Below, piece by piece: positions 9,268 through 19,118 of a stretch of DNA of 38,826 bases. Each line of letters starts with the position of its first letter. Within the stretch, counting starts at the first letter, position 1. The stretch is from Moorena bouillonii PNG (GTDB lineage: Bacteria; Cyanobacteriota; Cyanobacteriia; Cyanobacteriales; Coleofasciculaceae), in NCBI RefSeq assembly GCF_001942495.1, contig NZ_MKZS01000001.1:7317671-7356496 (forward strand). Reading direction: 5' to 3'. The position numbers and the translations under genes are program-made. The notes under the pieces were generated by a model. The model was given only the letters and a program-made list of their open reading frames with translations, made no database searches and had not been told where the DNA came from.

Positions 9268-11037
9268 TTGAGCTGTATTGTGCATCTATTTGTTGCTGAA
9301 TCAATTCATTGCATTAATCCCAATTGCCCAGCACCCTACCCTCAGCCAAGGGATAACAACTTTTGCAATGGTTGTGGAGCAAAGTTAAAGCTCAAGAATC
9401 GCTACTTACCTCTCCAGCTCTTGGGTTCAGGAGGATTTGCCAACATATACACCGTTTGGGATTTGCGGTCGAATACAGAAAAGGTGCTGAAGGTATTGCT
9501 AGATACTAAACCGAAGGTATTGCAGCTATTTCAGCAAGAGGCAGATGTTTTGCAACGTCTGGATCATCCAGGCATTCCCAAAGTTGACCAAGATAGCTAT
9601 TTTGTCGTCAATCTAGGTCTTGAGCCACAGGACCTGCACTGTTTGGTGATGGAAAAAATCAACGGTTCAACCTTGGAGCAAATGCTCACAGATCATCCTC
9701 AGGGATGTCCAGAGATATTAGTGCGGGACTGGCTCTACCAGGCAGCAGAAATTTTACAGGTCTTGCACAGTTGTGGAGTGATTCACCGTGACATCAAACC
9801 GTCAAACTTAATGCTGCGGGAAACCACGGGAGAGCTAGTGGCGATTGATTTTGGGGGAGCTAAACAATTGAGTGTGGGTTCTGAGTCTTCTCAGAACGAT
9901 TCGACTCGGTTGATTACTCCAGGTTACTCTCCACCGGAACAGATAGCTGGTGCAGCAATTGGACCCGCTGCTGATTTCTATGCCCTGAGCCGAACCATGA
10001 TTCATTTACTGACGGGTATTGAGTTGAAGGATTTACAAGACCCAGTAACTGGTGAATTTCGATGGCGAGAGCAGGCAGTGGTAAGTCATGACTTGGCGGA
10101 CTTGCTGGATGAAATGCTCAGCGTAGTACCCCAACAAAGACCAACAACTACGATTGAGATTCATCTGCGTCTAGGTATGACTCCTAGCACTAGTTACCAA
10201 CCTATCCCAGCACCAGTACCTTCCTCAGCACCAGTGTATTCGTCTCAAGGAAATCAGGTAGCTGCTCTGGGGTTATCTAGCCGTAAACTAAGACAATCTG
10301 TGACAGGCTTGACTCACTCGATCACATCCGTAAAACATTTATTTTTAGCAGTAGTGATCACCATCGCACTAGCCTGTCTCGATAGTGCCTGGGAGATGTT
10401 CCTCGGAGCTTTTGGGGGAGTTTTTTGTGCAACGGTTGGGTTTATGGTATTGAATTGGACAAGTCTTGGGGAGAAAGTGACAAATTGGCTCTCTGGGGAA
10501 CTGTCTATGATCTTGCCTTCGCTACAAATAACAATGTGGCAAGAAATGCTATTGTTTGCGGCGGCTGGCTTAGGTACAGCTTGGGGGTTGACGGCTGCAA
10601 GAGGCTTTGGTCAGCAGCGGCGTTTTTTAGTGGCAGGGATAATGGGTATTTTTGGTTATAGCCTGGGATGGTTGATGTGGCAGGCAACGGTACCTACGCT
10701 ATTATTGCTGTCTTATGTACCTGACCAGGGGTTGCTGCCATGGATTACTGCGGTTACAGTAATGCTCCTGGTACTAGGATTAGGGCTACCCAGTCATAAT
10801 CTTGTTCATGCCTTAGTGGTGGCAGCAGGAACTGGTGGCGTATTTGGGGGTCTAGTGTCATCTGATCTATTGCCAGCAGGATTTGTGGTTAATATCTTTT
10901 CCTTTTCTAGAACCGGTAAACTGGATTTCTATCACCCGATGACTTTTTTTGCTATTTTGGCTATATTACAAGGATTTTGGCTAGGGGTGAGTTATTACCT
11001 GCTAGTGCCAGTAATGCGTTGGTTTGGCTGGCGTTAA
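9268..11037 (+). CDS. Zinc-ribbon Ser/Thr protein kinase with C-terminal membrane domain
   Basis: A 589-aa protein (counted from TTG). A zinc ribbon comes first (Cys15, Cys20, Cys33, Cys36), then a Hanks-type kinase. Visible kinase motifs are the Gly loop GSGGFANIY (53-61), Lys75, Glu91, HRDIKPSN (173-180), DFGGAK (194-199), PGYSPPEQ (218-225) and DFYALS (236-241). From about residue 355 there are roughly six hydrophobic helices, so the kinase is probably anchored in the membrane with the catalytic domain in the cytoplasm. Substrates are unknown. The start is uncertain: no in-frame ATG precedes the zinc ribbon. Candidates are TTG 9268 and GTG 9280, while an ATG at 9261 is one base out of frame and stops after 12 codons. 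The reading frame is open back to the stop of the HTH gene. Confidence 0.88.
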   Translation: MSCIVHLFVAESIHCINPNCPAPYPQPRDNNFCNGCGAKLKLKNRYLPLQLLGSGGFANIYTVWDLRSNTEKVLKVLLDTKPKVLQLFQQEADVLQRLDHPGIPKVDQDSYFVVNLGLEPQDLHCLVMEKINGSTLEQMLTDHPQGCPEILVRDWLYQAAEILQVLHSCGVIHRDIKPSNLMLRETTGELVAIDFGGAKQLSVGSESSQNDSTRLITPGYSPPEQIAGAAIGPAADFYALSRTMIHLLTGIELKDLQDPVTGEFRWREQAVVSHDLADLLDEMLSVVPQQRPTTTIEIHLRLGMTPSTSYQPIPAPVPSSAPVYSSQGNQVAALGLSSRKLRQSVTGLTHSITSVKHLFLAVVITIALACLDSAWEMFLGAFGGVFCATVGFMVLNWTSLGEKVTNWLSGELSMILPSLQITMWQEMLLFAAAGLGTAWGLTAARGFGQQRRFLVAGIMGIFGYSLGWLMWQATVPTLLLLSYVPDQGLLPWITAVTVMLLVLGLGLPSHNLVHALVVAAGTGGVFGGLVSSDLLPAGFVVNIFSFSRTGKLDFYHPMTFFAILAILQGFWLGVSYYLLVPVMRWFGWR

Positions 11038-13184: not shown

Positions 13185-14168
13185 ATGAGCGAACCAATAG
13201 CTGACTATGACAATCCTTGGAAAGAAGCATTACAAGCTTATTTCGATTCATTTTTGCAGTTTTGTTTTCCCCAAGTTCACACTCTGATTGATTGGAATCA
13301 GACCCCCCAAGCCCTTGATACAGAATTACAGCAAATAGTTGGTGCTGCTGAGTCAGGAAAAAGAATCGCTGATAAATTATTCCAGGTGTGGCTCTGTAGT
13401 GGAAATGAAACTTGGGTATTGATTCATGTAGAGGTACAAAGCCAAAAAGAATCAACTTTTGCTAAGCGAATGTACCAATATCATTACAGGGCATTTGACC
13501 TGTACGAGAAACCTGTGATTAGCTTAGCGGTATTGGGGGATGAGAATGCTTCTTGGTCTCCATCGTCCTATGAATATGGCTTGGGAGGTTGTCGCCTGAG
13601 TCTAGAATTTCCGATAGTTAAATTACTGAACTATCAGTCAATGTGGCAGGTGTTGGAATCGAGTACTAATCCCTTCGCAGTAGTGGTGATGGCTCATTTG
13701 AAGACCAAAGCTACCCATAAACAACCGATGGAGCGCAAGCGATGGAAGTGGTACCTGATTCGGAGACTTTTTGAACGAGGTTATAGTAAAAACGATATAG
13801 TGAAACTGTTCCAGTGTATTGACCAAATGATGGCTTTACCGGAAGAGTTAGAACTGGAGCTGAATCAAGAACTTGAACGTTATCAGGAGGAAAGACAGAT
13901 GCCTTTGATTAGTCGAGTGGAAGAAAGGGCAATGAAGAGGGGTCTGGAACAAGGACTTCAAGAAGGACTTCAACAAGGTTTTCAAGAGACAGTGGTTAAA
14001 ATTTTACAAAATCGGTTTGAATCGGTATCACCAGAATTGGTGGCAGCGATTAATTCAATAGAAGATATCTCTGTGTTGAAACAGTTGATTGATCACTCTC
14101 TTAAGAGTAAATCCCTTGAGGAATTTGAGCAGCTCTTGGCACAACATCAGGTTAGTCAGGACAATTGA
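13185..14168 (+). CDS. Rpn-family PD-(D/E)XK nuclease-like protein with DUF4351-type tail
   Basis: A 327-aa protein of the Rpn/transposase-31-like group. Residues 1-110 show the nuclease core: DNPWKEAL at the start, Asp63 in RIADKLFQVWL and the Glu83-x-Gln85 pair in LIHVEVQSQ. Characterised Rpn proteins are DNA endonucleases linked to recombination; many cyanobacterial copies are untested. The C-terminal part (about 230-320) has a charged Q/E-rich helix (EQGLQEGLQQGFQETV), then LQNRFESVSPELVAAINSIE and SLEEFEQLL, typical of the DUF4351-like tail. The start ATG lacks a strong ribosome binding site. Its 3' third has been duplicated just downstream. No transposase or inverted ends were found, so it is not a simple insertion sequence. 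Confidence 0.85.
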   Translation: MSEPIADYDNPWKEALQAYFDSFLQFCFPQVHTLIDWNQTPQALDTELQQIVGAAESGKRIADKLFQVWLCSGNETWVLIHVEVQSQKESTFAKRMYQYHYRAFDLYEKPVISLAVLGDENASWSPSSYEYGLGGCRLSLEFPIVKLLNYQSMWQVLESSTNPFAVVVMAHLKTKATHKQPMERKRWKWYLIRRLFERGYSKNDIVKLFQCIDQMMALPEELELELNQELERYQEERQMPLISRVEERAMKRGLEQGLQEGLQQGFQETVVKILQNRFESVSPELVAAINSIEDISVLKQLIDHSLKSKSLEEFEQLLAQHQVSQDN

Positions 14169-14623
14169 AGAGTAAGGAGACGGGCAAGATGCCCGTTCCA
14201 CGCCTGATGCCCGTTCCACCAAGATTACCATTCCACCCACCGGGTCAAACAGCTTTAATCAGATGCACCCAACTTGAACGTTATCAGGAGGAAAGACAGA
14301 TGCCTTTAATTAGTCGAGTCGAAGAAAGGGCAATGAAGAGGGGTTTTGAAAAAGGATTTCAACAAGGATTTCAACAAGGACTTCAACAAGGACTTCAAGA
14401 ATATCGGGAAGGCTTACAAGAGACAGTAGTTAAAATTTTACAAAATCACTTTGAATCCGTATCACCAGAATTGGTGGCAGCGATTAATGCCATAGAAGAT
14501 ATCTCTGTGTTGAAACAATTGATTGATATCTCTCTTAAGAGTAACTCCCTTGAGGAATTTGAACAGCTATTGGCACAACATCACTCCCGACTTCCTACAA
14601 CTCAATGGAATAATGATCTTTAG
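14165..14623 (+). pseudogene. Duplicated C-terminal fragment of the Rpn-like gene
   Basis: From 14272 to about 14583 the DNA nearly repeats 13871-14150, beginning at ACTTGAACGTTATCAGGAGG in both. It encodes only the tail (LERYQEERQMPLISRVEERA onward, with an expanded FQQGFQQGLQQGLQEYREGL helix). The nuclease core with its Asp and ExQ residues is absent. The first 36 codons of the open frame are translated palindromic repeat DNA. The frame is intact and overlaps the end of the upstream gene by 4 bases, so a short protein could still be made, but I read it as a gene remnant. Its 3' end overlaps the convergent NACHT gene by 29 bp. Confidence 0.7.
14180..14222. repeat. Palindromic GGGCA-aga-TGCCC repeat
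   Basis: ACGGGCA-aga-TGCCCGT (14180-14196) is a perfect 7-bp stem with a 3-nt loop, followed by a second half-copy (GATGCCCGTTCCACC, 14206-14220). It belongs to the same family as the AACTGGC...GCCAGTT palindromes at 7068-7314 and 17875-18115. It separates the two copies of the Rpn tail. Confidence 0.75.
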
Positions 14624-17600
14624 CACCTTCTCCCGGACCCTGAGTCCACCGTGAATCAGGTTTCCAAGCACCATTGGCTTCTTCCCGGCGGCGAGTGTAG
14701 ACAGTGAGCTGATTACCTTCAAATGTCAGTAGATTATATTGCCAGGGATAACCAGTTCTTAGTTCAAGGGTGGGTGCCCCAAAGGTGCCAGCACAAATTC
14801 CATCGAGTTTTCGCCCATCTGGACTGAGGTCGTAACGGAAAAGACTGGTTTCAGCTTTGTGGATATGTCCGTGGAGGAAGAAGCGGAATTCAGCAACGGC
14901 TAGTTGTTCGATGAATCCTTGGTCGGTAATCCTATCGCTTCCAGCACTATTGAGGGGATGGTGCCAAACCGCTATTTTCAGGCAGTTGTGGTAGTTTGGA
15001 TTACCGCGAATCTCTCTGAGGGCGTTGGTTAGAGCACCTGAGTGAATGCTAGCACGGTCTTTGAAGTGGTGATCCAGTTGCCAAGCGGAGTTTAGTCCTA
15101 GAATCAGCAAGTTTTGGTCTGGGAAATGGTGGATAATGGCTTGCTGGTCATAGTCGAGGGGATAGGGTTCAGTTTTGATAGCTTGATAGAATTGGCTGAA
15201 GTGGGCAAACCGTTGTTGGTATTTAGCTTCATCTCGGACTCGAATCACCTGATCAGTGACTTTGATGTAGTCACCGTCTTGGAGTTTATCATGGTCTTTT
15301 GTGCGATCGCGTAAATCATAAGCATCCTCTGATAGTGTCCAATTGAGGTCATGGTTACCGGGAACTAGAACAATTTGCTTCGGGTCTAGGGGGAAGTCTT
15401 GGCGGAGGTTGTGGAGAAACTGTTGTGCAGCCTGGTATTCTTGTTCAGTGGAATAATTCGCGATATCACCGGAGAGGATAAGAGCATCAAGGTGAGGGAT
15501 TTGAAGGTCTTGGGCCAGGTCTTGGGCGAGTTGGTTTGACCAACGGCTAGCTTGATCAGGGGTGGTGATGTGGAGGTCCGAGAGGTGGAGGATGTATGTG
15601 GTTTGATTGGTAATTGGTTTAGGAGTATTGGGTTTGGGAGTAGGTTTGGGACGATAGGTTGGGTTGTAGACTTGGTAGCGCTCTTGAATGGCGTTAATGA
15701 TATTTATAATTCTCTTAAAAAGATCTTTATCATTAGTTGCTGCAAATTCTTCGTTGTTCAGCAGATTCATTAGTTTAGGAATCGTGGCTTCTGTCCCGAT
15801 TTTTTTCAGAGCATTTGCCGCACTCCTACGCACCCAAGAGTTGTCATCATGCAGCAATTTAATTAAGGGGTCGATGGTGGCTTCTGTCCCGATATTTCTC
15901 AGAGCATCTACCGTATTTACCAGAGCAGCTGCCGCACGAATACGCACCCAAAAGTTGTCATCATCCAGTAATTTAATTAAGGGGTCGATGGTGGCTTCTG
16001 TCCCGATTTCTCCCAGAGCATCTGCCGCACTCATACGCACATTAGAGTTGTCATCATCCAGCAATTTAATTAAGGGGTCGATGGTGGCTTCTGTCCCGAT
16101 TTTTCCCAGAGCAAATGCCGCACTCATACGCACCCAATAGTCGTCATGATCCAGCAATTTAATTAAGGGGTTTATAGCGGCTTCTGTGCCGATTTTTTCA
16201 AGAGCAAATGTCGCACTCATACGCACCCAAGAGTCGTCATAATCTAGGCATTTACTTAGCTCAGGTATCGCTTTTTCTGATCCAGTTATTCCCAACAGCT
16301 CAACCTTAAGTAACTTCGGAATCTCTAACCGAGCCACCAACCCGACAGTATCTTCCTGAAACTTGGGTTTTACTGCTCCTGCTAATCTGGCTCCCAATTG
16401 CCCATCCACATCTAACCCTAACCTTACCACCCGGTTTGCTTGCTTTTTATTGTCTACCAATTGTAGCATTAGCACCAGAGTTTCTGTCCATTTCAAATAA
16501 TTGAGATAGTTCTGTTGCAGCTGCTGATCACTAAGACGTGGTAATTGCTTCAATAAATATTCTGCTGTATAGTATTCTTGGATCAGTTGGTGTCGAAACT
16601 CAATCAACTCTCCTGATTGTTGAATCAAGTGATGGTTGAGCAAGTCATCAAGCCAAGTCTTGGCGTAAACATTAGGATTAACAACAGCTTTCTTAAGTAG
16701 ATAATTAGTTAAAATTTCTTCGGCTTTGGTCTTGGTAATAGCAACGTTGATCTCCTCGGGTTTATCAGGGTTATCCCCTGTTGTCATCACAAACCCTAAC
16801 TGTTGCAGCAGGTCAGGCCAAAATTTTCTTGAGTTATTATCGGAAACCTTAACATCTTGCTTGATTTCCTGAGAATAGGACTGGGTAAAGAAGCGAAACA
16901 CTAAACCGAGATTAGACGGTATCTTACCTCTAGACTTAAATAGGGAACATAGCATCCACAATAGTAGGGGGGTTTGCCCAAACTCCCGTAAGCGATCGCC
17001 CAATTGGTTAAGCATCTGCTCTCCCTGTTGAGGCAAATACTTGCGGACAAACTCCGACATTTGGTCTGCACTCAAAGGTTGCATTTCCAACTTCTTCTGA
17101 ATCCCCAAGTCACCACCAACTCCTAAATCCCTGGTGGTGAAAATCATGGGAGTAGTCTTCTGGTAATCCTGCCGAAACTGAGTCAAATCGGAGCGTGCTG
17201 CTTCTGACGGTAGCTCGTTCACGCCATCGATCAGTAACCAGAATTGCCCTTTAAACAGTAGTCTTTCGATCTCCTCGGTGGAGTCGAGCCATACACCATG
17301 GCGTTTCAGAAAATTCCGCACTAACTCCAGCACCGATGTCTGGTAATATCGCAGTTCCACCAGCACCGGAATTTTCCCTTGTATCCCCTCATCTGCCAGC
17401 AATTGCACTAAGGCTGTGGATTTGCCGGAACCCGGACGTCCCACCAGTAATACATGGTCATCAGCATACTTGCGCAATCCTTCTAGGATAGGCAAGCGTT
17501 CAGTTTCTTCTCGATTTTGGTTTCTTTCTGGCTGCTCCGACTTGATGGTTTGCACCATTAGGTCAAAGTTGAACAATCCAGGGGTCTGTTGCTGCTTGCG

Positions 17601-17693
17601 CTTGCGGCCTTCGACATCGCTCGGGGTATAAGCTTGCCACCTTTGGGCGTAGGTGTTACGGATTGATGCTAGATAGGGATCCCAAGTGACCAT
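14595..17693 (-). CDS. NACHT NTPase - HEAT repeats - metallophosphoesterase fusion
   Basis: A 1032-aa protein with three parts. The NACHT/STAND NTPase has Walker A GRPGSGKST (85-93), Walker B FWLLIDGVNELP (151-162) and the sensor strand MIFTTRD (183-189), followed by a helical region to about 465. Five to six HEAT repeats of 31 residues span about 475-645. A Pro/Lys/Thr-rich linker (680-698) leads to a calcineurin-type metallophosphoesterase with SDLH (705-708), GD (742-743), GNHD (779-782), WHHP (910-913) and HGHIH (941-945), so all metal ligands are present. The ATG at 17693 has no visible ribosome binding site. The frame runs open to 17900, but those 69 codons are repeat DNA. STAND proteins usually carry the effector first and the sensor last; here the enzyme is C-terminal. 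A role in signalling or phage defence is inferred. Confidence 0.9.
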   Translation of the reverse strand: MVTWDPYLASIRNTYAQRWQAYTPSDVEGRKRKQQQTPGLFNFDLMVQTIKSEQPERNQNREETERLPILEGLRKYADDHVLLVGRPGSGKSTALVQLLADEGIQGKIPVLVELRYYQTSVLELVRNFLKRHGVWLDSTEEIERLLFKGQFWLLIDGVNELPSEAARSDLTQFRQDYQKTTPMIFTTRDLGVGGDLGIQKKLEMQPLSADQMSEFVRKYLPQQGEQMLNQLGDRLREFGQTPLLLWMLCSLFKSRGKIPSNLGLVFRFFTQSYSQEIKQDVKVSDNNSRKFWPDLLQQLGFVMTTGDNPDKPEEINVAITKTKAEEILTNYLLKKAVVNPNVYAKTWLDDLLNHHLIQQSGELIEFRHQLIQEYYTAEYLLKQLPRLSDQQLQQNYLNYLKWTETLVLMLQLVDNKKQANRVVRLGLDVDGQLGARLAGAVKPKFQEDTVGLVARLEIPKLLKVELLGITGSEKAIPELSKCLDYDDSWVRMSATFALEKIGTEAAINPLIKLLDHDDYWVRMSAAFALGKIGTEATIDPLIKLLDDDNSNVRMSAADALGEIGTEATIDPLIKLLDDDNFWVRIRAAAALVNTVDALRNIGTEATIDPLIKLLHDDNSWVRRSAANALKKIGTEATIPKLMNLLNNEEFAATNDKDLFKRIINIINAIQERYQVYNPTYRPKPTPKPNTPKPITNQTTYILHLSDLHITTPDQASRWSNQLAQDLAQDLQIPHLDALILSGDIANYSTEQEYQAAQQFLHNLRQDFPLDPKQIVLVPGNHDLNWTLSEDAYDLRDRTKDHDKLQDGDYIKVTDQVIRVRDEAKYQQRFAHFSQFYQAIKTEPYPLDYDQQAIIHHFPDQNLLILGLNSAWQLDHHFKDRASIHSGALTNALREIRGNPNYHNCLKIAVWHHPLNSAGSDRITDQGFIEQLAVAEFRFFLHGHIHKAETSLFRYDLSPDGRKLDGICAGTFGAPTLELRTGYPWQYNLLTFEGNQLTVYTRRREEANGAWKPDSRWTQGPGEGAKDHYSIEL
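15759..16271 (-). repeat. 93-bp tandem repeats encoding the HEAT units
   Basis: Five near-identical 93-bp units plus partial ends encode the HEAT repeats (consensus TIDPLIKLLDDDNSWVRMSA then A.AL.KIGTEA). The DNA is almost unchanged between units, except for codons at the variable turn (DYDDSW, DHDDYW, DDDNSN, DDDNFW, HDDNSW). One unit has a 21-bp insertion (LVNTVDALRN in place of LGE). Confidence 0.9.
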
Positions 17694-17824: not shown

Positions 17825-18196
17825 TTGTAGAGGCACTATTGAAGTAGAGTGCGATCGCGTCTGTGATAGTAGCAAACTGGCTTGATGCCAGTTCCACCAA
17901 TTAGTTGTAGAGGCACTATAAACTAGTATGCGATCGCATCTGTGATAGTAGCAAACTGGCTTGATGCCAGTTCTACCGATTAGTTGTAGAGGCATTATCG
18001 GAATAGAATGCGTTCGCGTAGCGTGACCAAAGGTCAATCGCATTATTTCTAGACTGTAGCAAACTGGCAAGATGCCAGTTCCACGCCTGATGCCCCCAGC
18101 AAACTGGCTTGATGCCAGTTCTACCGATTAGTTGTAGAGGCATTATCGGAATAGAATGCGTTCGCGTAGCGTGACCAAAGGTCAATCGCATTCTAA
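17825..18196. repeat. Four composite repeat units upstream of the NACHT gene
   Basis: Units begin with TTGTAGAGGCA at 17825, 17905, 17984 and 18132. The first two carry a HIP1 site (GCGATCGC) then TCTGTGATAGTAGC and the AACTGGC-ttgat-GCCAGTT palindrome. The third and fourth carry the TTCGCGTAGCG...GACCAAAGGTC repeat (18013-18041, 18161-18190) at the place of the HIP1 site. The third also has two palindromes. Open frames here are repeat translations. Confidence 0.85.
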
Positions 18197-18230: not shown

Positions 18231-19118
18231 TTAAAGCGAACTAGAATCAAGACTTGCGGCTTCACCAGGAGTTTCAGGCAAGTGTATACCACACTCTTGC
18301 TTAAGGCCATGAAAACGGGTATCCCGTTCATCCTGATCATCAAAGGATAAAGGTCGGCTGGAATGCCAATCACCGACGGTTGTATAACCCTCATCAAACA
18401 TAGGATGATAGGGTAAATCATGAGCGGTGAGATACTGATAGATATCCCTAGAGTTCCAGTTAAGAATTGGCAAAATCTTATACTGCTCTGCCTGCTTGTT
18501 AACCCAGCCCATAGTCTTGCGGTGGTCAGTCTGTTGCTTGCGCAATCCTGCTAACCATCCCGTTGCCTTCAGTTCCCGCAAAGCGCGCTGCATTGGTTCC
18601 ACCTTGCGGATCTGGTCGTAGCGGTTGAGGGATTCTACATCCTGCTTTTCCCAGAGTCTGTCATACAACGCTTCCATCCGTGCTGGACTCATGGCAGACT
18701 GGTACACTTTCACATTCAAGTTGAGCCGTTCGATCAACTCCTCGGCAAATCGATAGGTTTTCACCGGTAGGTAGCCCGTATCTACCCAAATTACTGGTAT
18801 ATCTGGCACCACAGTAGTGACCAAGTGCAGCATGACCGCTGACTGGATCCCAAAGCTGCTACTCATCACTAAGCCATCACCAAAGGTTTCAGCTGCCCAT
18901 TCTACGATTTTGGTAGGGCTAGCCTCAGCAAGTTGCTGATTCACTGCTTCCAAATCCAGCTCAATTTGGTTTGATGTTACCCCGGTCATGGGGTCTGACT
19001 GCTGAGATTGAGGCTGCTTTGTTTTCCCATTCCCATCGAAGTGATCACGGCTTTCGATAGGTGCAGCCTGTTGATTTCCAGAAGCTTGATCAGAAGCGAT
19101 CAGATTCAGTCGCGGCAT
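18231..19118 (-). CDS. cysH: Phosphoadenylyl-sulfate (or adenylyl-sulfate) reductase CysH
   Basis: A 295-aa PAPS/APS reductase of the assimilatory sulfate pathway, reducing activated sulfate to sulfite with thioredoxin. The PP-loop-like [14 protein letters not shown] segment (about 92-105), [18 protein letters not shown] (about 120-137), the [14 protein letters not shown] block and the C-terminal catalytic [10 protein letters not shown] are all present. A second cysteine pair (CC...CxxC) for an Fe-S cluster is not seen, which favours the PAPS-type, thioredoxin-dependent enzyme. The first about 45 residues, up to [16 protein letters not shown], look low-complexity, so the true start could be the internal ATG at 18989. 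Neither ATG has a clear ribosome binding site; the longer form is given. It is a single-gene unit with no other sulfur genes nearby. Confidence 0.92.

Follow-up and report, generated by a model that had tools for sequence, protein, structure and literature searches.

A NACHT-HEAT-metallophosphoesterase gene of Moorena bouillonii and its cyanobacterial family of candidate NLR-like receptors

Described systems and the Moorena gene

The DS-8 system of E. coli combines a metallophosphatase with a NACHT domain, and mutation of either ended phage protection; what is degraded is unknown, according to the accessible part of the report (PMC13092281). In the available sections of two other papers, the calcineurin phosphoesterase is counted among the effector domains of STAND and of VMAP/EACC1-type conflict systems, TIR, caspase and PNPase are given as effectors of NTP-dependent conflict systems, and C-terminal effectors are described in AP-GTPase and GT4-STAND proteins (PMC8195603, PMC7159879). 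Excerpts on Trichodesmium describe Tery_1841, a caspase with NACHT in reverse orientation, and, in another paper, one caspase with a C-terminal catalytic domain (PMC7475262, PMC2853523); we assume that both mean one gene, cbMC alpha-C / Tery_1841. Fungal NLRs, in the accessible text of PMC4986451, have a NOD core, combinatorial effectors and highly conserved repeats, some positions of which are under positive selection. Here we analyze a stretch of 38,826 nucleotides from Moorena bouillonii PNG (hereafter, the window), in which a gene on the minus strand (14595..17693) encodes a fusion of a NACHT NTPase, HEAT repeats and a metallophosphoesterase (MPE). No description of a NACHT-HEAT family with exchangeable C-terminal modules was found in the literature searched, the coverage of which lay mostly outside subscription papers and preprints.

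The gene is a single open reading frame (ORF), open and intact throughout, which runs from the ATG at 17693 to the stop codon at 14595-14597 and encodes 1032 residues. An alternative TTG-extended frame of the same gene gives 1101 residues; the ATG of the shorter form is matched in position by the ATG of paralogues. The domains, all on the minus strand, follow in a clear order. Residues 1-79 (17457..17693) form an N-terminal segment, delimited by the alignment of 19 members, that is common to most aligned members irrespective of the C-terminal module; in a few (e.g., L076, L077 and L078), it is missing or lies outside the covered part. The NACHT domain (residues 80-222; 17028..17456) carries Walker A, GRPGSGKST (85-93; 17415-17441), Walker B, LLIDGVNE (153-160; 17214-17237), and the segment FTTRDLG (185-191, with TTR at 186-188). 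The post-NTPase region (223-470; 16284..17027) is conserved in the family alignment and includes the block FRHQLIQEYY (366-375; 16569-16598). The HEAT array (about 471-648; 15750..16283) consists of 31-residue units, with outer limits set by eye and one irregular unit near residues 600-612; its DNA is a tandem repeat with periods of 93 and 114 bases (matches of 86% and 88%). The linker behind it (15594..15749) carries the family element IQERYQVYNP (669-678; 15660-15689), past which the C-terminal modules diverge. The MPE module (701-1032; 14598..15593) has the full set of active-site motifs: LHLSDLHI (702-709), SGDI (741-744), PGNHD (778-782), WHHP (910-913) and HGHIH (941-945).

In Pfam, four matches exceeded the curated cut-offs: NACHT at residues 80-222 (5.1e-9; 36.6 bits against a cut-off of 26.7), HEAT_2 (8.2e-44; best stretch 507-591), HEAT_PBS (1.9e-35; best stretch 521-547) and Metallophos at residues 701-946 (7.6e-8). 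The protein therefore has the features of a STAND/NACHT NTPase, namely, a NACHT match above the cut-off, both Walker motifs and superstructure-forming HEAT repeats, and the metal-site motifs of a calcineurin-like phosphoesterase (DxH, GD, GNHD, H and HGHxH) are complete. An earlier note on this DNA had described a fusion of this kind with both motif sets intact, that is, a STAND-type protein bearing a C-terminal enzyme, and the frame, the Pfam matches and the motif positions bear this out. In profile searches of the PDB, the closest solved NACHT structure was NLRC4 (5aj2; 5.2e-13), and the credible MPE relatives were Lmo2642, SbcD/Mre11, the phosphohydrolase 2dxl/2zo9, which we take to be GpdQ, and the Rv0805 entries. 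GpdQ and Rv0805 hydrolyze phosphodiesters or cyclic nucleotides. TAL effectors came first for the MPE and filled 29 of the 42 rows; however, these matches were composed of many weak stretches, none passing singly, and were discarded as spurious.

Among the antiphage models of NCBIfam, the MPE matched DS8_antiphage (NF053861; 4e-27; model positions 1-233) and DS9_1_antiphage (NF053862; 1.1e-23). As in DS-8, one polypeptide contains both this kind of metallophosphatase and a NACHT NTPase. However, the enzyme lies at the start of the DS-8 model and at the C-terminus of the Moorena protein, the match spans the MPE only, and the Moorena protein scores 94.4 bits against an equivalog cut-off of 790; by model score and domain order, it is thus not a DS-8 member. 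To DS-9A the likeness is one of the MPE domain, whereas DS-9A is a two-gene system with a HAD phosphatase, for which the accessible description names neither NACHT nor HEAT. Tery_1841, judging from the published descriptions available in part, resembles the Okeania members of the present family (L149, L179, L188 and L189), which have the order NACHT-HEAT-caspase, in its NACHT and C-terminal caspase and is probably their kin; it differs from the Moorena protein in having a caspase, not an MPE, as the effector. The earlier note regarded a C-terminal effector as an unusual order. The order itself stands, but in view of this Trichodesmium protein it is not wholly new.

The family and its C-terminal modules

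The distribution of the NACHT part was examined in two collections. With residues 1-470 as the query, 37 of the 386 sampled cyanobacterial genomes had a match at 1e-15 or below, which in a few was weak or incomplete. A profile from 19 members, scanned over one genome per species (84,980 species), yielded at least 104 confirmed NACHT relatives, and the survey figures below rest on the best 80 of these. Some loci recur between samples (L124 = L104, L128 = L121, L161 = L086 and L164 = L089). Among the matches listed, the record titles shown were cyanobacterial without exception, and the closest match was that of a Moorena sp. (L124; 88%). The Walker and TTR residues were invariant across the 19 aligned members. 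Complete ORFs were found in 69 of the best 80 relatives, and by pattern search 51 of these 69 carry a post-HEAT element of the type IQxRCxFYNYEI, as do 25 of the 29 relatives with a recognized module. The order proposed for a search in cyanobacteria does recur: NACHT, HEAT and MPE are joined in a single ORF in 19 distinct copies from 14 genomes (the window counted), one copy being cut at its 5' side by the contig end. The genome of the window alone has at least 33 NACHT matches at 0.001 (150 of 226 candidates scored), including two more paralogues of the NACHT-HEAT-MPE type, the open frames of which span 1431 and 1547 residues, with 75-84% identity over long matches.

The C-terminal modules were assigned by similarity to seeds, together with Pfam on ten representative C-termini. 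A recognized module was found in 29 of the best 80 NACHT loci: caspase in 10 (including L159, which retains only the end of the module), TIR in 9, MPE in 4, a PD-(D/E)XK-like domain in 2 (called by eye; L203 lacks such a Pfam match), and PNP, EAD1-CHAT, DUF4062 and DUF6883 in one each. In the others, the C-terminus was a tail with an unnamed helical-looking region (8), the linker with a short or unassigned tail (19), a sequence without the linker (14, including L124, the MPE of which lies in the next frame), or was cut by the contig end (10). Pfam placed a module above its cut-off in 8 of the ten representatives, L203 and L152 giving none: TIR_2 in L173 (4.1e-14), L190 (1.2e-14) and L150 (6.9e-15), Peptidase_C14 in L130 (7.3e-22), PNP_UDP_1 in L145 (2.7e-27), EAD1 and CHAT in L140 (2.7e-27 and 6.1e-33), DUF6883 in L177 (4.6e-12) and DUF4062 in L131 (1.7e-5). 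By sequence similarity, the NACHT part thus defines a cyanobacterial family with differing C-terminal modules. The suggestion that the MPE is the output is supported by the occurrence of these other domains at the same place in relatives.

Exchange of the modules was examined on a tree of 99 NACHT domains (a quick LG+G4 tree with supports from the Shimodaira-Hasegawa-like approximate likelihood-ratio test, SH-aLRT, only, and no bootstrap). The window NACHT falls within a Moorena clade of 12 (SH-aLRT 100). Several sister pairs differ in their modules: TIR and PNP in two Symploca (98), a helical tail and a PD-(D/E)XK-like domain (100), TIR and a tail only (95), and MPE and DUF4062 (90, not starred). 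As side observations at the other end of the protein, eight members have an N-terminal trypsin-like domain of about 210 residues (L163, L178, L160, L165, L172, L174, L175 and L193; Pfam-checked on L163 only), and two EAD-like N-terminal additions were recognized by eye in five and two members.

The tails of some members recur outside the NACHT genes. A motif of the form GNxNTGDVxIxGDQxG or F(N/Y)AP...GNVEG occurs in 7 of the best 80 relatives and in 4 of the 2320 other ORFs (90 residues or longer) of those loci, the pattern having been written after the tails were viewed. Three of these four ORFs follow a tail-only NACHT gene downstream on the same strand, at a distance of 0.5-0.7 kb (L153:13219-13665, L192:13602-14192 and L196:14195-14881), and the fourth (L135) is the NACHT gene continued past a stop. 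The small ORFs combine the Asn/Gly-rich motif with a helical-looking C-terminus; Pfam gave nothing above the cut-off in them save HEAT_2 in the first part of that of L196. Motif sharing between an NLR and its effector is seen in amyloid signaling pairs, and each small ORF and its tail-only NACHT gene may possibly form a receptor-effector pair of this type. Such sharing is consistent with an output at the C-terminus that part of the family carries by fusion and other members recruit.

The reverse combination, one MPE on several switches, was also found. The MPE occurs in 10 of the 386 cyanobacterial genomes at 1e-30 and, additionally to NACHT-HEAT, on EAD1, AAA-TPR and GAF proteins. A broken phosphoesterase site in most homologues, which would have spoken against the hypothesis of the earlier note, was not found: when five partial domains were left out, D706, D743, N780, H781, H911, H912 and H945 were kept in 38 of 38 MPE domains, and H708, H941 and H943 in 37. 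A careful tree was built from 38 MPE rows, in which several long branches are unsure; on it, the partner changes between NACHT-HEAT and any other type at least 7 times. Counted as NACHT-HEAT were also the split copies L079, L081 and L082, L107 (with a masked stretch) and the 5'-cut L097 and L099 (HEAT alone visible), and the other type took in stand-alone and unassigned partners. NACHT-HEAT and EAD1 partners occur together in one starred Moorena clade, and a starred clade of 15 holds NACHT-HEAT, AAA-TPR and GAF partners. Two AAA-TPR proteins (L088:701-6259 and L091:7890-12887) carry the same MPE at the C-terminus; this place is thus not restricted to HEAT proteins. In the genome of the window, a protein of 537 residues (L003:6250-7860) with the order EAD1-VMAP-M1-MPE has an MPE 77% identical to that of the window and, by its domains, is part of a vWA-MoxR type conflict system. 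This is a likeness to the STAND/VMAP conflict systems, whereas the accessible accounts of those systems describe no NACHT-HEAT core with exchangeable C-terminal modules. A far relative is N-terminal on a protein of 1514 residues in the same genome, the later part of which matches TPR-type regulator models. In L121:5507-10051 (= L128), the MPE was matched as two pieces about 40 residues apart in one open frame. For a phage origin, no MPE match was found among 50,697 phage records; viral contigs gave 16 MPE pattern matches with no true relative and, for NACHT, one weak relative (L204; 22% identity) among the matches listed (600 pattern matches). MPE relatives occur on five plasmid records, the best being a Nostoc plasmid (48.6%).

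Variability within the HEAT array

Of 16 Moorena ORFs, counting interrupted copies, 15 contained HEAT units that fitted a strict pattern, 130 in all; in these units, the most variable of the 31 positions were 6, 7, 8, 11, 12 and 15. The variability was first scored at positions picked from the same data, which is circular, and the scoring was repeated at positions fixed by the alphaRep artificial binders, which were the best PDB matches of a two-unit HEAT query. In 28 alphaRep units typed from the PDB output (21 positions compared, units at the array ends left out), the varied positions were 7, 8, 11, 12, 15 and, less so, 19; we take them to be the randomized binding positions of the library. 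The rank correlation between the alphaRep and natural variabilities was 0.69-0.77 in six gene sets. The ratio of nonsynonymous to synonymous differences (pN/pS), taken between units of one gene and descriptive, as unit pairs are not independent, was higher at the first five of these positions than elsewhere in the unit: 1.63 vs 0.50 for the Moorena MPE genes, 1.23 vs 0.55 for the other MPE genes of the family, 1.88 vs 0.64 for caspase, 1.89 vs 0.67 for TIR and 1.49 vs 0.53 for the rest. The repeats described earlier as near-identical are thus alike in their unit scaffold but vary strongly at five or six positions, and the suggestion that they form a recognition array gains support, these being the positions varied in artificial binders.

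As a control, 13 loci of the window genome were examined with a looser unit pattern, and six proteins had enough units. In the four that match the NACHT profile, the ratio of pN at the five positions to pN in the rest of the unit was 2.46-4.35, and pN/pS at these positions was 0.92, 1.58, 2.95 and 18.8 (the last with almost no pS). The excess was larger in the NACHT family than in the two HEAT proteins without this NACHT. In a related context, PMC10907252 reportedly describes how the sensors of conflict systems in multicellular bacteria are varied by diversity-generating retroelements.

The receptor reading, its rivals and the locus

Taken together, we consider it rather probable that the protein is a cyanobacterial NLR-like (STAND/NACHT) receptor with a C-terminal output module, the MPE being its effector. 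It probably serves as an anti-virus or cell-suicide receptor, the weapon of which has been swapped in evolution, and it probably works like an NLR and after the manner of DS-8. We infer that the HEAT array would bind a trigger, possibly from a phage, via its hypervariable surface; the NACHT ATPase would then switch and oligomerize, which would cluster or free the C-terminal MPE. The MPE would hydrolyze a phosphodiester or nucleotide substrate and thereby stop or kill the infected cell, or shut down a signal. Kinship to DS-8, GpdQ and Rv0805 suggests that the degradation of cyclic nucleotides, which the earlier note put forward, may be its role. That interpretation is partly supported: its main idea was right, but its scope was too narrow. 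More tentatively, and at not quite an even chance, the family may form a reversed-layout class of bacterial NLRs. In such a class, a fixed NACHT switch and a hypervariable HEAT array evolving like an engineered binder library would be followed by an exchangeable output docked past a conserved linker. This output would be either a fusion in cis (MPE, caspase, TIR, PNP or nuclease-like) or a partner recruited in trans via a short tail motif shared with a neighboring small protein. Because the array sits between the switch and the output, it is the solenoid itself that would relay recognition to the effector.

Several results weigh against the receptor reading. The fewest module changes on the NACHT tree (43 labeled tips, 8 module types) is 10, just 3 above the floor of 7, and the exchange is therefore argued from the supported sister pairs and not from the total. 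In the heterocystous MPE set, pN/pS was 1.79 at the five positions and 1.23 elsewhere, that is, above 1 outside them too, with a low pS. The two HEAT proteins without a NACHT-profile match also showed some excess (pN ratios of 1.69 and 1.81; pN/pS of 1.12 and 1.08), and one of the four NACHT proteins reached only 0.92; the signal is thus partly general to exposed HEAT positions. A defence-island setting, expected in the earlier note, was not supported: no recognized defence gene was found among the window neighbors (10 proteins by Pfam and 9 by PADLOC, with no enrichment test), which are of housekeeping type. They comprise a cysH-like 3'-phosphoadenosine-5'-phosphosulfate reductase upstream (18231..19118, minus strand), a DUF4351/Transposase_31 protein downstream (13185..14168, plus strand; DUF4351 just below and Transposase_31 just above the cut-off), a kinase, Uma2 and an M48 peptidase (Pfam), and clpB (by eye). 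Finally, the cysH-side orthologues are interrupted in all three sister Moorena genomes, and the frame is intact in the window alone; the gene is thus dispensable there. In two of them (G001 and G003), an interruption at an identical point of the HEAT array splits the frame into a NACHT-HEAT frame and a HEAT-MPE frame, and in the third (G002), the MPE match begins at its position 61 in another frame. A second G002 copy of the gene (L106) retains no more than a decayed remnant of its MPE, and a G001 copy (L081) has a stop within the array. In total, 5 of the 12 NACHT copies in the four Moorena genomes (L079, L081, L082, L104 and L106) are interrupted or lack a working MPE frame, although assembly errors in repeats may account for some interruptions. 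L104 and L106, both of G002, seem to be missing the same initial portion of the MPE, which gives the impression that one is a copy of the other.

These results bear differently on three other explanations. The protein may instead be a regulatory receptor of physiology or development, with HEAT as the sensor of an internal protein and the MPE as the enzyme that breaks down a second messenger (e.g., a cyclic nucleotide), and without a part in defence. The solved relatives Lmo2642, SbcD, GpdQ and Rv0805, the fusion of MPE relatives to GAF domains and the fixed place beside cysH in all four Moorena genomes (G000, G001, G002 and G003) agree with this. This fixed place amounts to half of the other objection named in the earlier note, although further copies occur at different loci and the family has a patchy distribution. 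This patchiness (MPE in 10 and the NACHT part in 37 of 386 genomes, at the thresholds given above), the frequent decay, the hypervariable array and the finding that this switch also bears caspase, TIR, PD-(D/E)XK-like or PNP modules make such a role unlikely. If, on the other hand, the MPE and its alternatives were merely chance fusions in a decaying family, kept alike by gene conversion among repeats and having no present function, the broken Moorena copies would be expected; nevertheless, the catalytic residues are kept in 37 or 38 of 38 MPEs, the Walker and TTR residues are invariant in the aligned members, and in five of the six gene sets the HEAT positions other than the five variable ones have a pN/pS well below 1, which renders this explanation very improbable.

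The third explanation keeps the same logic with another trigger: a receptor for self/non-self or kin recognition that triggers cell death in the filament, as in the incompatibility of fungal NLRs, and that is not mainly anti-phage. The tail motifs shared with a neighboring small ORF at three loci, which resemble amyloid signaling pairs, speak for it; in contrast, the family is present in Microcystis (L147, L148, L150 and L157), which is not filamentous. As far as the accessible text of PMC4986451 goes, fungal NLRs have the swapped effectors and the conserved repeats with selected positions that we find in the Moorena family, whereas their repeats are WD, ANK and TPR and their effectors are N-terminal. 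Against this explanation, DS-8, with its related MPE, protects E. coli from phage, in the part of PMC13092281 available. We regard kin recognition as quite improbable, and the receptor reading with an anti-virus or cell-suicide role is retained.

Some further features of the window were noted. The 3' end of the NACHT gene overlaps a small ORF (14165-14623) that repeats the C-terminal part of the 13185-14168 protein. The neighboring serine/threonine kinase (9268-11037) strongly matched the PADLOC models of PD-T4-6 (9.8e-86); this is presumably a general serine/threonine kinase match, and the kinase was not counted as a defence gene. Upstream of the NACHT gene, 17825-18017 contains 79-base and 7-base tandem repeats, and 7-base arrays are scattered over the window. 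Neither an Rfam family at the gathering score nor a tRNA was found in the window, and promoter-like and terminator-like sites were no commoner there than in shuffles.

What appeared to be an odd fusion thus becomes a family with built-in controls, in which one switch and array have many outputs and one output sits on many switches, so that the order of action can be tested by domain swaps. The family also offers a natural HEAT repertoire, the variation of which falls at sites that are varied in the artificial alphaRep binders as well, and it connects a large group of relatives to DS-8, an anti-phage phosphatase that was validated recently.

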